Below, piece by piece: positions 62 to 12,226 of a stretch of 20,972 bases of DNA; the first letter of the stretch is position 1, and every line of letters starts with the position of its first letter. The notes beneath the pieces were generated by a model. The model did no database searches, was not told the DNA's origin, and saw only the letters and a list, made by a program, of their open reading frames with translations. Position numbers and translations under genes: made by a program. The DNA is from a virus. The stretch covers positions 1 through 20,972 of IMG/VR virus record IMGVR_UViG_3300002141_000126, one strand, 5' to 3'.

Positions 62-781
62 ATGAAAATTGAAACACAGGTAATCGAGGTAAGAGTGACA
101 GACGAGAGCAGGGAACTATTTGAATCGGCAAATTCCGTCTCTAAGGAGGTATTATCCCTCACAATTGAGAATGATGAGCAATACTCAAACGCGGCGGAAC
201 TCACAAAGAAAATACGCGTTGTTTCAAAAGATTTAAATGCTTCAAGGGTATCTATCACGGCCCCGCTAGACGAAGCTAAGAAAAAGATCATGGATTTATT
301 CCGTGAACCACTAAGTGCCCTAGAATCGGCTCAGAAAACACTAGATTTTGGAATCAGAGACTACCACACCAAAAAAGAAAACGAACGTCGTGAGGCTGAA
401 AGAAAAGCAGAGGCTGTGGCCAAGGCTGAGGAAGAACGCAAAAAGAAGTTGTTAGAAGAGCAGGCACGGAAAGCAGAGGCGGCAGGCAGAGAAGCCCGCG
501 CAGAGGCACTCAGAGAAAAAGCAGAAGTTGTGCATGTTCCTATCATCTCCAAGCCAGTCGCAGAGGCCCCAAAAGTCGCTGGGATATCATTTAGGACAAC
601 GTGGAAGGCCAAGGTGTCGGATTACAAGAAAATCCCGCAAAACTTTTACATAAATGACCCAAAAGTGCAGGCAGCGATTCTGTCAGTAATGGACGGATAC
701 GCGAAGAACAGCAAAGGTGGTTTGGAAATTGCAGGGGTTGAATTTTACGATGAAAAAACAGTCGCAGGGAGGTCATTTTAA
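62..781 (+). CDS. DUF1351-like phage coiled-coil protein
   Basis: A 239-residue protein with a helical N-terminal half, a strongly charged Ala/Glu/Lys/Arg-rich coiled coil at about residues 95-155, and a compact C-terminal module starting WKAKVSDYKK and containing GVEFYDE. That layout (coiled coil, then a W..KV.D...IP segment and a GV motif) is what I know from DUF1351-type phage proteins, which usually lie beside RecT/exonuclease recombination genes and SSB. The exact biochemical role of the family is not settled. I chose the ATG at 62 because AGAAGGA lies about 8 bases upstream. A GTG at 14 and an ATG at 53 are in frame but lack a properly spaced ribosome-binding site. The stop overlaps the SSB start (TAATG), so the two are probably translationally coupled. 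The first 13 bases may be the last codons of an upstream gene. Family assignment is moderate. Confidence 0.65.
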   Translation: MKIETQVIEVRVTDESRELFESANSVSKEVLSLTIENDEQYSNAAELTKKIRVVSKDLNASRVSITAPLDEAKKKIMDLFREPLSALESAQKTLDFGIRDYHTKKENERREAERKAEAVAKAEEERKKKLLEEQARKAEAAGREARAEALREKAEVVHVPIISKPVAEAPKVAGISFRTTWKAKVSDYKKIPQNFYINDPKVQAAILSVMDGYAKNSKGGLEIAGVEFYDEKTVAGRSF

Positions 782-1149
782 TGAACAGATTATTGGTAAC
801 GGGTAGATTGGTTGCGGATCCAGAAGTAAAGCAAGCAGCGTCCGGGGTTTTGATGGCTAATATTATTGTAGCCGTTCGGCGGGACTTCAAGGACAAAAAA
901 ACGGGTAAGTATGAGTCTGATTTTTTACGCTTCAAAGCTTTTGATAAAACAGCAAACTTTTTAGATAGCTATCTAAAAAAGGGAGATCAAATTGAGATTG
1001 AAGGGTCTATTAGCAATAACAACTATGAAAAAGAAGGGAAAATGGTATATCAGAACGATTTTGTTGCGAACCGAGTTTCCCCGCTTGGTTCTGCAAAAAA
1101 GACAACAGAATTAAATACAAATTTAGATACATACGAGCTTCACTTTTGA
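781..1149 (+). CDS. ssb: single-stranded DNA-binding protein (SSB)
   Basis: A 122-residue OB-fold SSB. The N-terminus MNRLLVTGRLVADPEVK, the following ANIIVAVRR strand and the later DFLRFKAFDKTANFLDSYLKKGDQIEIEG stretch, split by the usual KKTGKYES loop, are diagnostic of the bacterial/phage SSB family. It coats single-stranded DNA during replication and recombination. The protein is shorter than cellular SSBs: the OB fold ends near residue 98 and the tail is only about 24 residues. The C-terminus, DTYELHF, ends in Phe like canonical SSB tips but lacks the run of acidic residues (DDDIPF type) that binds partner proteins. It directly follows the DUF1351-like gene, which supports a recombination/replication module. 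The stop codon overlaps the start of a possible 19-codon ORF (TGATG). Confidence 0.95.
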   Translation: MNRLLVTGRLVADPEVKQAASGVLMANIIVAVRRDFKDKKTGKYESDFLRFKAFDKTANFLDSYLKKGDQIEIEGSISNNNYEKEGKMVYQNDFVANRVSPLGSAKKTTELNTNLDTYELHF

Positions 1150-1877: not shown

Positions 1878-2555
1878 ATGGATTGGATAAAAATAAAAAC
1901 ACATCACATGTTGTTCTCGGAGCTCTCAATGACAGATCGAGGAATGCTTGTTTCTATACAATCCCTCACGGCTCACCTAGAGAGATTTCCGACAGATAAA
2001 GAGATCGCGATGCTTCCGGGAATCGGTCGGAAGGCTCTCGCAACACTGTCGGATAACGTTCGCAATACAGGCGCAACACTGTCGGACATCATTCACAAAG
2101 TCCTCGAAGACGTTTCGGAACTCAATAGCAACAGGATTAGCAGTCGAGAAAGAAAAAGGATTTCACGCTCAAAAAAACAAGATGTCACGCGTGACATTGA
2201 TGTGACGTCACAGGGACAAGCCGATACAGGTCACGCTATAAGAGAAGAGAAGAGAATAGAAGAGAAGAATATCTTATCAGATAGTGAAAAAAAATCTGTG
2301 ACTAGGTTTGTTAAGCCGGCGTTATCGGAGGTAGAGGATTTTATTGGGACGATAGATAATTGTCATGCCGCTGACAGAATGAAAGAGGCTGAATCATTTT
2401 TTGATTTTTACGAATCGAAGGGGTGGGTTGTTGGTAAGTCTGGAATGAAGGACTGGAGGGCCGCTGTAAGAAATTGGGTCAGGAACTCGGATAAATTCAA
2501 AGGGAAAAACAATGTTCAAAAGAAAGGTTTGAGGGAGATATGGGATGCAATCTAG
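1878..2555 (+). CDS. phage replication initiator-like protein (O-type)
   Basis: A 225-residue protein in two parts. Residues 1-85 (MDWIKIKTHH...LTDRGML...) look like the winged-helix N-terminal domain of phage replication initiators: W-I-K-I start, a hydrophobic helix, then a recognition-helix-like stretch. Residues 95-140 are a polar, charged linker. Residues 150-210 contain ESFFDFYESKGWVVGKSGMKDWRAAVRNW, a motif common at the C-terminus of phage replication proteins and primosome-related HTH proteins. AGGGGA precedes the ATG at 1878. The next gene overlaps by 11 bases and is helicase-loader-like, giving an O/P-style pair that would open the origin and load the replicative helicase. The linker-coding DNA carries palindromes and a purine tract that may be the origin itself. 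The role is inferred from layout and motif, not from an exact family match. Confidence 0.65.
   Translation: MDWIKIKTHHMLFSELSMTDRGMLVSIQSLTAHLERFPTDKEIAMLPGIGRKALATLSDNVRNTGATLSDIIHKVLEDVSELNSNRISSRERKRISRSKKQDVTRDIDVTSQGQADTGHAIREEKRIEEKNILSDSEKKSVTRFVKPALSEVEDFIGTIDNCHAADRMKEAESFFDFYESKGWVVGKSGMKDWRAAVRNWVRNSDKFKGKNNVQKKGLREIWDAI
2039..2086 (+). repeat. 15-bp direct repeat pair inside the initiator-like gene
   Basis: CGCAACACTGTCGGA occurs at 2039-2053 and again, identically, at 2072-2086, exactly 33 bases (11 codons) apart. Both copies are in the same reading frame and encode (L/G)ATLSD. This may be an internal duplication or an initiator-binding repeat (iteron). Confidence 0.6.
2163..2302. 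other. candidate replication origin within the initiator-like gene
   Basis: The segment has a 16-bp perfect palindrome at 2182-2197 (ATGTCACGCGTGACAT), a 12-bp perfect palindrome at 2201-2212 (TGTGACGTCACA), and further TCACGCT copies at 2163-2169 and 2231-2237, with a TGTGAC at 2297. It is followed by a purine-rich tract of repeating AGAAGAG units at 2240-2269 with one interrupting T, and then an AT-rich stretch. Clustered inverted repeats next to an asymmetric purine/AT-rich region inside an initiator gene is the arrangement of the lambda origin. The encoded protein segment is a low-complexity linker, so it could tolerate such DNA. The assignment is inference. Confidence 0.4.
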
Positions 2556-5202: not shown

Positions 5203-5510
5203 GCACACAAAATGAACTATTTTCAGAATTGGTGAAGCTAAAATCAGAGAACCCGCATTTGGACGTGGCTTTTATGGCCGATGGAGAGGAGACTCTCTCG
5301 GGATATCGAAGGAACGCGCACAAAATAAAATCGGTAGGTGTTGACTATATGATGGAAAGCAGCGGTTGGGATTATACTGTTGGAGAAATGGGCATTCTGG
5401 ACGAGATAGAGCATTCAACTGGTACTCGGTTCGTCGACGTAACAGCCGCAATTAGAGAAATACCAAACCGTATAAAAAAAGCGATAATCGTCTACACGGG
5501 GGCGTTATGA
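5199..5510 (+). CDS. hypothetical phage protein, 103 aa
   Basis: A 103-residue acidic protein. The N-terminal stretch LFSELVKLKSENPHLDVAFMADGEE resembles a small phage protein family of unknown function (F..L..L..ENP.L.V..M.D.E). A strong GGAGGTGG ribosome-binding site precedes the ATG and the neighbours overlap by ATGA. It immediately precedes the predicted endonuclease, but nothing in the sequence links it to DNA cleavage. Confidence 0.6.
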   Translation: MSTQNELFSELVKLKSENPHLDVAFMADGEETLSGYRRNAHKIKSVGVDYMMESSGWDYTVGEMGILDEIEHSTGTRFVDVTAAIREIPNRIKKAIIVYTGAL

Positions 5511-5875
5511 AAATAGATAAAGCCGATGATTTTATGCAGTATATCCATATCCTAAAGCCCTCCCTTAAAAAGGGAATGTTTCGGGAATACAGATTTTGCG
5601 CCGCAATTGTTGGCGACGGACCAGGGATACGCGGAAGACTAAAAAAAGCAGGTTTGCAAGACTGGCGTTTTGATTTTGCTTGGCCTGATTCAAAACTTGC
5701 GGTTGAAATTGACGGCGGCCAATGGATGGCTGGCGGTGGACGTCACAATTCCGACGGGGACCGGCTAAAACTAAACACAGCCGCAACTCTTGGGTGGAGG
5801 ATCATTCGGTTCTCTGTAAAGACCATGACGGATGACCCTATCGGGTGTTTAAAGAAAGTTGAGGGGGCTTTATGA
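5507..5875 (+). CDS. DUF559/Vsr-like PD-(D/E)XK endonuclease
   Basis: A 122-residue protein with the core of a small restriction-endonuclease-fold nuclease: D56 in WRFDFAWP, E67 and D69 in LAVEIDGGQW, a histidine-containing GGGRHNSDGDRLKLN helix, and GWRIIRFSVKTM near the end. The order (DF..., vEiDGg, H, D..K, GW..iRf) is that of DUF559/Vsr-type nucleases. Catalysis would use D56 and E67 with a divalent metal. Phage members could nick mismatched or modified DNA, resolve junctions, or degrade foreign DNA; the sequence does not say which. It has only a weak ribosome-binding site, but ATGA overlaps on both sides suggest translational coupling with the next, Lar-like gene. Confidence 0.8.
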   Translation: MKIDKADDFMQYIHILKPSLKKGMFREYRFCAAIVGDGPGIRGRLKKAGLQDWRFDFAWPDSKLAVEIDGGQWMAGGGRHNSDGDRLKLNTAATLGWRIIRFSVKTMTDDPIGCLKKVEGAL

Positions 5876-10223: not shown

Positions 10224-12226
10224 TATCTTTCCCTTCTACTTTTTTGGTATTCTTCATAAATATTTGATGACATACTACCATCTGCTTTCCGGGATGCAAT
10301 AGGGGCCGCCATTTTAGATCCTTTTGATATCAAATTAACACCGGCCTTAGTATATGGTAATGATCTCACAATATATGAGTTTACGCGTGGGGATGTAGCC
10401 CCGACAGCGCCTAAAGTGGCGGCTATCGCCAAAGGCTTTGATGCGTTACCTAGTGCAATCACAGGCGCAGCAGAGCCTACGGCTCCGTACAACGAAGGCC
10501 GCTTCCTTATAAAATCTTTTGCAATATCAAGATCCTTTATTTTTGACAGTAAAGCATCGCCTTCTTCTCCAAGAAGAGATTTTATACCGGATGCCTCTTC
10601 TGGTGTCATTTTAGAGAAGTTTTGCATCATACCTCTTGCGCCTCTTTGCGTTGAAAGGCTAGACAATGAAGATAGCAGGTCTTTTTGTGATTTTATTGCA
10701 TCTGGTATCTGTTTTTGTATCAAAAAATCTGCTTGCTTTGGTATAGATTGCTCTAAAAAATTAACCCCAGAAATTTCCTGAAGTTTCTCTAATGCCTCTT
10801 TTTGACGTGGGAATATATTCCCATTGTGGTAGTCCTTTATAAGCCCAGATATGCTTTTATCAGTTCTGCTTTGTAAAGATGATTTAATTTCTTTAACTAA
10901 AAAAGAATTGTCATTTGCCTGTGCAATTTCAGGAGACAACGCGCGTAATTTTTCATTAAGTACATTTCTTGCTTTCTTTAAAAGAAATTCACCCTCACTT
11001 GTAACAACGTCGGATGAATATTTTGGTCCATAAGTAACAAAATTATCTATTTTACCTATGATTGTTGATATCCGAGCAGGAGATATTGGCGCTCTGGACA
11101 TTGTTTCTTTTGTTGTAATCATTGGCCCAAATATAGGGTCTAATACAGAAGACTTTGCTTGTCCTCTCTCTATATTCCCCAGCAACTCTTTCTTGATATC
11201 CTTTAAAAAAGAAATCTCAGATGGCGACATATACGAAGTCTCTCCAGACGGGTCTACTATTGTCCCCTCTTTCAATATAGAATCTACTTCTTTTGCCATA
11301 TCATCGCCATATAATGTGCTTTCTTTGGCGCCTTCTTTTAATGCTTTCCTTGCATCTCCAACAACAGATCCCGCTTTGGATTCAATGTCTTTCATAACAT
11401 TGTTCGCAGCTATCCCAGATTGATTTGCTAGATCACTATTAGATTTTTTAACTTGCTCCGCAATAAGTTTGTTTTTCTCCTTCGATGCAATATTTGAGGC
11501 GGCTATATCAGATATTTCTTTTTCAGCAGCATTTTTTATATTTTTTACCTTAGAAGAAAGAATGTCCGCAAGTTCATCAATCTTTGAGCCTGCCCTCGTC
11601 CATCCCTTTTGAAAGATATCTTTAGGCCTAGCTACGGCTTCGTATATTTTCCCCTCTGGAATAGGGCTTATTCCGGCAAGCCCTCTGCCTGCGCCTTTTA
11701 CAATAGGCTTTAAAATCTTTCCCCCTACTCCAAGCCCCCCAGTAATTAAGCTAGACAAAACGCCTTCGTCTCCACCCTCTGTCAATGCCCCGTTTAAGCT
11801 ATTCCCTCCTAGTAACTCTCTAGCGATTCCGCTTAATCCTGTAGCGGTGCCTTGAACCGCCATTTGCGCTGGAATTGATTGTCCGCCAGTGGCCAACATT
11901 GGGGCCGTCTCAACAATGGCAGACAAGGCCCCTTTGGGGTTGTTATATGCGCCTTCAATAGTTGGAGAAACTCCACCTAGGCCTTTAAGTAATGCGGCGT
12001 CCCTTTTTGATTTTGTAGCATTTTTTGGGGTCCCTGTTTTCTTCGTTGAAAAAATTTCAGAAAGCCCTTGTATAAACCCAGTTTTTTCATTCTTCTTAGG
12101 AGATGAAATGTAATCATCTGGATTTTCTCCAATAGAGGATATATACCCTCTAATCTCTTCGGGCTCAGCCCCTTGGGAGGCCATGGCTTGAATGTTTTCA
12201 AATAAAATCCCTTTATCAATAGCCAT
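10223..12226 (-). CDS. large internal virion/DNA-ejection-type protein
   Basis: A 667-residue protein. The N-terminus (residues 1-40: helical, EPEEIRGYISSIGENPDDY) is followed by a Gly/Ala-rich region (about 75-215), long charged coiled coils (about 215-320 and 420-520), and hydrophobic Gly/Ala-rich segments near the end (residues 590-640, VGSAAPVIALGNASKPLAIAA). No enzymatic motif such as a transglycosylase E..S was seen. Large helical proteins with membrane-active Gly/Ala segments placed between tail genes and the fibre are typical of podoviral ejection proteins (gp15/gp16-like) that enter the cell with the DNA. It overlaps its neighbours on both sides by TAATG. The family is unrecognised and the role is positional inference. 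Confidence 0.6.
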   Translation of the reverse strand: MAIDKGILFENIQAMASQGAEPEEIRGYISSIGENPDDYISSPKKNEKTGFIQGLSEIFSTKKTGTPKNATKSKRDAALLKGLGGVSPTIEGAYNNPKGALSAIVETAPMLATGGQSIPAQMAVQGTATGLSGIARELLGGNSLNGALTEGGDEGVLSSLITGGLGVGGKILKPIVKGAGRGLAGISPIPEGKIYEAVARPKDIFQKGWTRAGSKIDELADILSSKVKNIKNAAEKEISDIAASNIASKEKNKLIAEQVKKSNSDLANQSGIAANNVMKDIESKAGSVVGDARKALKEGAKESTLYGDDMAKEVDSILKEGTIVDPSGETSYMSPSEISFLKDIKKELLGNIERGQAKSSVLDPIFGPMITTKETMSRAPISPARISTIIGKIDNFVTYGPKYSSDVVTSEGEFLLKKARNVLNEKLRALSPEIAQANDNSFLVKEIKSSLQSRTDKSISGLIKDYHNGNIFPRQKEALEKLQEISGVNFLEQSIPKQADFLIQKQIPDAIKSQKDLLSSLSSLSTQRGARGMMQNFSKMTPEEASGIKSLLGEEGDALLSKIKDLDIAKDFIRKRPSLYGAVGSAAPVIALGNASKPLAIAATLGAVGATSPRVNSYIVRSLPYTKAGVNLISKGSKMAAPIASRKADGSMSSNIYEEYQKSRRER

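Follow-up and report, generated by a model that had tools for sequence, protein, structure and literature searches.

Does the gene at positions 1878 to 2555 of this viral DNA encode a replication initiator that acts at an origin within its own coding sequence? The window analyzed here, meaning the whole stretch of DNA, is an entire IMG/VR-type virus record, 20,972 bp long, that is classed as linear and is probably a fragment rather than a complete genome. For most uncultured phages, to our knowledge, no origin has been identified. Judging from the sequence features described below, the product of this gene is very probably a phage replication initiator whose origin lies within the gene itself, arranged on the lambda plan with an unrelated N-terminal domain and with iterons spaced one helical turn apart.

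Genes occupy the plus strand up to about 7.6 kb, and structural-type genes lie on the minus strand. The plus-strand genes that frame the locus are as follows.

62 to 781, plus strand: recombination-type gene upstream of the locus (phrog_10477 'exonuclease', 8e-33)
781 to 1149, plus strand: single-strand DNA-binding protein (SSB) gene of the same module (Pfam SSB, 1.8e-21; phrog_44)
1878 to 2555, plus strand: initiator-like gene, an open reading frame of 225 amino acids whose C-terminal half matches replication-type phage proteins
2545 to 3117, plus strand: next gene, sharing 11 bp with the initiator-like gene; may encode a P-like helicase loader

Small plus-strand genes separate the SSB gene from the initiator-like gene. 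The presence of SSB and recombination genes nearby also favors the origin reading. The C-terminal half of the initiator-like protein matches phage proteins labelled 'replication initiation protein' or DUF4373, and the protein matches phrog_15768 (1e-19). The first-pass annotation had proposed an O-like and P-like gene pair as in lambda, and this proposal stands in part. The C-termini of two sister genes match O-like families, but the window protein itself has no match to lambda O or O-like initiators in Pfam or PHROGs (nor to DnaD in Pfam), and the P-like label is backed by one weak profile match of the 2545–3117 gene to a helicase loader family (phrog_2289, E = 0.014). No relatives of this gene were found in IMG/VR. 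The next gene in relatives of the initiator is a 'DnaC-like helicase loader' or a 'DNA helicase', and a P-like helicase loader is a weakly supported candidate identity for the product encoded here.

GC skew, which had been suggested as an independent marker of the origin, is positive over the plus-strand genes and negative over the minus-strand genes. It tracks gene direction, turning at a peak near 7.5 kb where that direction flips and not at the candidate origin, and is uninformative here.

Within and around the interval originally flagged (2163–2302), the initiator-like gene contains the following elements.

1878 to 2180, plus strand: N-terminal domain (MDWIKIK...), predicted to be helical and helix-turn-helix (HTH)-like, ending in a long helix (residues 68–101)
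2024 to 2133, plus strand: about ten 11-bp direct repeats with consensus CnnTCGnAAnn, the proposed iterons (autocorrelation and synonymous shuffle)
2163 to 2169, plus strand: TCACGCT, a partial half-site
2182 to 2197, no strand: perfect 16-bp palindrome ATGTCACGCGTGACAT (GTCAC-N2-GTGAC)
2201 to 2212, no strand: perfect 12-bp palindrome TGTGACGTCACA, with the same half-sites in inverted order
2230 to 2237, plus strand: GTCACGCT half-site
2236 to 2297, no strand: proposed DNA unwinding element of low duplex stability, consisting of a purine tract (2240–2269) and an AT-rich stretch
2298 to 2302, plus strand: GTGAC half-site beyond the purine/AT-rich tract
2301 to 2519, plus strand: C-terminal domain with K-M-K-D-W-[KR]-A-A-V-R-x-W

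No other repeat signal in the gene is as strong as the array at 2024–2133, which was overlooked in the earlier annotation. Its units are CGGTCGGAAGG, CTCTCGCAACA, CTGTCGGATAA, CGTTCGCAATA, CAGGCGCAACA, CTGTCGGACAT, CATTCACAAAG, TCCTCGAAGAC, GTTTCGGAACT, and CAATAGCAACA. A scan of the whole record for an 11-bp period, prompted by the 11-bp spacing seen in sister genes, gave a combined 11/22/33 autocorrelation of 148 at this site, compared with 97 at the next best place, 107 as the top score in the record for the remaining base lags between 7 and 15, and a maximum of 108 among 300 Markov-2 null records. Chance was also assessed by shuffling synonymous codons within the gene, which keeps both protein and codon usage. 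By this test lag 11 is significant (P = 0.001) and lags 10, 12, and 13 are not. When the window gene is taken by itself, its linker shows no excess of exact 8-mer direct repeats (P = 0.22, and 0.10 in a second run of the test). Because 11 is not a multiple of three, the reading frame shifts from one unit to the next, and therefore neither protein selection nor in-frame duplication alone suffices to explain the array. Three units correspond to an 11-residue protein repeat, which falls on the predicted long helix. The repeats had originally been placed over the low-complexity linker of the protein, but the main array lies upstream of the flagged interval, where the N-terminal domain ends in its long helix, and the repeats are not confined to the linker.

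Both palindromes, as well as the TCACGCT copies at 2163 and 2231, are located exactly where they had been reported. Synonymous-codon shuffles of the window gene seldom reproduce GTCACNNGTGAC (P = 0.003), a pair of palindromes 12 bp or longer (P = 0.0055), or the six GTCAC/GTGAC half-sites (2.3 expected, P = 0.005). The segment 2184–2302 holds 6 of the 19 such half-sites in the record. Palindromes per se are not unique to the candidate origin: a 22-bp perfect palindrome (TTTTTAGATAGCTATCTAAAAA, 958–979) that exceeds the flagged 16-bp one in length lies within the SSB gene, and a second 16-bp perfect palindrome (TGGGAATATATTCCCA, 10808–10823) lies in the structural-type gene region. The exact 16-mer palindrome occurs in 21 IMG/VR contigs, which by a rough estimate is about the number expected by chance for a collection of this size. 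A search of the window gene for DnaA boxes returned no perfect match and a single site with one mismatch, at 2089.

The position and composition of the purine tract and the AT-rich stretch that follows it also agree with the original description. The tract comprises 30 bases with a single T, more than any other purine run in the record (the next is 22), and A+T reaches 71% across 2238–2300. Within the gene, duplex stability over 60 bp is lowest at 2236–2295, and the 60 bp from 2238 rank within the least stable 0.4% of the record. The first part of the array ranks at the 98th percentile for stability.

The N-terminal domain is presumed to be the origin-binding part, and the C-terminal domain is presumed to recruit the helicase or its loader (AF2 pLDDT 75, as a mean, and 78, respectively). 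PDB matches to the N-terminal domain are weak and are mostly HTH domains (best Z 4.9). Its similarity to the DnaD N-terminal domain is likewise weak (Z 4.6, 3.0 Å over 69 residues) and tied with that to unrelated HTH domains, and Foldseek returned no match below E 0.5 in PDB or BFVD. A fold search with the C-terminal domain against PDB gave no confident match. Its best match, to sigma factors (Z 5.1), is not credible as a function.

Relatives of the N-terminal domain were found in five other genes, all from IMG/VR (L002, L003, L026, L029, and L030), and none were found in phage, plasmid, and GTDB collections. These genes are diverged, with 30 to 53% identity to the window, and yet the 11-bp period occupies the same part of the gene in all six. 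By synonymous shuffle, P is at most 0.002 in five of the genes and 0.044 in L003, and lags 10, 12, and 13 are not significant in this set. The test is not independent for L029 and L030 because the period was spotted there by eye before testing; the record-wide scan of the window is unaffected. The repeat units themselves differ, being TCGnAA-type in the window and L026, TCnAG-type in L002, CAAGAG-like in L003, CAAAAA-type in L029, and TCAATA in L030. The clearest array of the set is at L030:4180–4256, where seven 11-bp TCAATA-type units (one TTAATA, one TCAATC) follow one another.

The palindrome recurs among the sister genes, once in another reading frame. L002 carries GTCAC-N2-GTGAC read as TCA CCG GTG ACT, compared with GTC ACG CGT GAC in the window, and L029 has the same arms as CGTCACCGGTGACG. 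L026 has GTAACGCGTGAC (GTAAC-GC-GTGAC) together with GTAACGTCAC, a near-equivalent of the 12-bp palindrome of the window. In all four genes the arms lie immediately 5′ of a purine-rich tract. The GTCAC-N2-GTGAC palindrome is absent from L003 and L030. A comparison of synonymous sites between the window and L026, its closest relative, of the kind proposed at the outset as a check for conservation, gave no significant excess (16 of 29 codons identical over the array and palindromes versus 13 of 29 over residues 1–48, p = 0.6). Because the units change between relatives, repeats within a gene provide a better test than conservation between genes.

The N-terminal domain is fused to at least four different C-termini, two of which match replication-initiator PHROGs, and these matches support the lambda-like plan first proposed. 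The C-terminus of L029 matches 'DnaD-like helicase loader' (4e-19) and 'replication initiation O-like' phrog_345 (8e-13), and that of L030 matches 'replication initiation O-like' phrog_678 (1.5e-16). The window and L002 share the KDWKAAVRNW domain, and the C-terminus of L026 has no family match. The L026 locus also has a phrog_10477-type gene upstream of its initiator. Downstream of that initiator is a homologue of the MTES_1575/DUF559-like nuclease gene found at 5507–5875 of the window. The L003 initiator gene ends directly after its purine tract. The tract is followed (L003:6343–6495) by three TGTGGATA words that resemble DnaA boxes and a perfect DnaA box, TTATCCACA (minus strand, 6486), as if DnaA boxes had replaced the C-terminal domain.

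One could instead attribute the 11-bp period to intrinsic curvature, with phased short A-runs wrapping or bending the origin and the palindromes serving as the true binding sites. Runs of AA or longer do recur at the same phase in the units (CAAAAA in L029, GGAAA in L026, GnAA in the window), and the lambda iteron region is intrinsically curved (PMC7466680). The conserved part of the window unit, however, is TCGnAA rather than an A-tract, and L030 keeps its TCAATA word in most units, beyond what curvature needs. We consider this explanation unlikely, though not negligible, and it would modify the origin reading rather than compete with it.

The case for an in-gene origin can be extended to genes that share only the C-terminal domain, which is encoded at 592 or more IMG/VR loci. 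We aligned 67 non-redundant genes at this domain; these are the best-scoring among the matches listed and not a random sample. Relative to synonymous shuffles, direct repeats are in excess from −120 to −30 relative to the domain (z 11–12) and in the −150 bin (7.7), with none in the domain itself and little in the more upstream part. For inverted repeats the excess spans −120 to 0 (z 2.6–4). At spacings not divisible by three there are 496 direct repeats where 67 are expected, and 0 of 200 shuffles reached the observed count; in-frame repeats number 897 against 182 expected. Prominent spacings are 10, 11, 20, 22, and 23 bp. Lag spectra of individual genes peak at 11, with 18 of the 67 genes at P ≤ 0.01 (0.7 expected). 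Outside the linker, lag 11 is significant in no gene for the C-terminal zone and in 5 for the N-terminal zone. In 50 of the 67 genes (10.5 expected), the least stable 40 bp fall within the 110 bp that precede the domain, this tract is weaker than in synonymous shuffles by z 10, and the repeats are upstream of it in 28 of the 38 genes with helically spaced repeats. Dozens of relatives share the layout with different repeat words. Applied to lambda O as a positive control, the same test recovered lags 20, 23, 24, and 44, all confined to the annotated iteron zone. The concentration of repeats and a weak tract in the linker of the 67 genes also supports the lambda-like plan.

Lambda provides the closest model. 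At oriLambda, where O and P act, the central part of the initiator gene carries iterons and an AT-rich tract (PMC7466680). The window has the same mid-gene order of repeats and then a weak AT-rich tract, possibly with a loader gene next, and the same statistical signature under synonymous shuffles. The two differ in that lambda has four 18-bp iterons 20 to 24 bp apart, whereas the window combines some ten direct 11-bp units with GTCAC palindromes that stand apart from them, and membership of the O-like families is seen in sister C-termini rather than in the window protein. Tandem 11-bp direct repeats form the high-affinity initiator site for RepB of pMV158 (PMC4753449). Such repeats are shared with the window, where an initiator site is proposed, but the pMV158 initiator nicks DNA for rolling-circle replication, and repeat number, gene placement, and protein all differ. 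No sequence relation between the two was found, and none is expected. Initiators with Lin1244_N (DUF4373) or HTH N-terminal domains (Vibrio, Porphyromonas, and gut phages) share the C-terminal domain, linker repeats, and low-stability tract, with a loader or helicase gene next in some, but have unrelated N-terminal domains and different repeat words. The candidate origin would work like an in-gene origin of the lambda type, with an iteron spacing of 11 bp instead of 20 to 24 bp. Our literature search found nothing on 11-bp iterons in phage initiator genes, although subscription journals were mostly outside its coverage and absence is unproven.

An operator function is less probable than curvature, and we regard it as improbable. 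In such a scheme the protein would bind its own gene for transcription control (or the sites would serve packaging or partition), with the origin elsewhere. Repressor and centromere sites are also typically palindromes or direct repeats, and the weak fold matches of the N-terminal domain are mostly to HTH domains of transcription factors. However, the site is in the middle of the gene instead of at a promoter, it is paired with the weakest duplex in the gene, the sister C-termini belong to replication-initiator families, and the lambda control shows the same statistical signature. The two functions are not exclusive because an initiator may also autoregulate. Least probable, and very much so, is that slippage or duplication in a tolerant linker produced repeats and purine runs with no function at the DNA level: linkers are low in complexity and in-frame repeats are also in large excess, but the out-of-frame spacings listed above are the most enriched relative to expectation, inverted repeats exceed expectation as well, six diverged genes hold the 11-bp period in place with mostly different units, the array stretch is predicted to be ordered helix rather than tolerant linker, and the palindrome recurs in another frame.

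Returning to the reading of an origin inside the initiator gene, several copies of the N-terminal domain would bind the 11-bp iterons (2024–2133), the GTCAC palindromes (2182–2212), or both. Because there is one iteron per helical turn, all would lie on one face of the DNA. The resulting complex would open the adjacent weak purine/AT-rich tract (2236–2297), and the C-terminal domain would bring in the replicative helicase, directly or via a loader that may be the product of the next gene. Binding of the repeats by the protein, this order of events, and the start of replication at this site are what we infer from an arrangement in which multiple repeats inside the initiator gene exceed synonymous expectation and adjoin a low-stability tract.

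More tentatively, and at somewhat less than even confidence, we suggest that there is a large class of phages with in-gene origins, in which a swappable DNA-binding N-terminal domain travels with its own fast-changing iterons, which share its stretch of DNA and are typically spaced by one or two turns, and helicase-recruiting C-terminal domains are interchangeable. As part of the same suggestion, the iterons of the MDWIKIK subfamily, lying in code for an ordered helix, would impose the 11-residue repeat, so that DNA code and protein fold are jointly constrained. If linker repeats do mark origins in this initiator class, then the sequence would reveal where origins lie in many phages, given the 592 or more IMG/VR loci that encode the C-terminal domain. 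Moreover, the specificity of N-terminal domains for their iterons is open to swap tests, and a single DNA segment that is at once a proposed binding-site array and the code for a protein helix offers a clean case.

Some further loci are worth recording. Vibrio phage 1.061 (L038:2375–2460) has GTGACA/TGTCA(C) linker repeats, which contain the half-site word of the window, beside an unrelated N-terminal domain (HTH_36). At L093:5064–5184, strong 11-bp periodicity (score 151) occurs outside the initiator gene. Finally, L110 encodes a short protein in which an N-terminal domain that by eye is of the ribbon-helix-helix type is joined to the same C-terminal domain.
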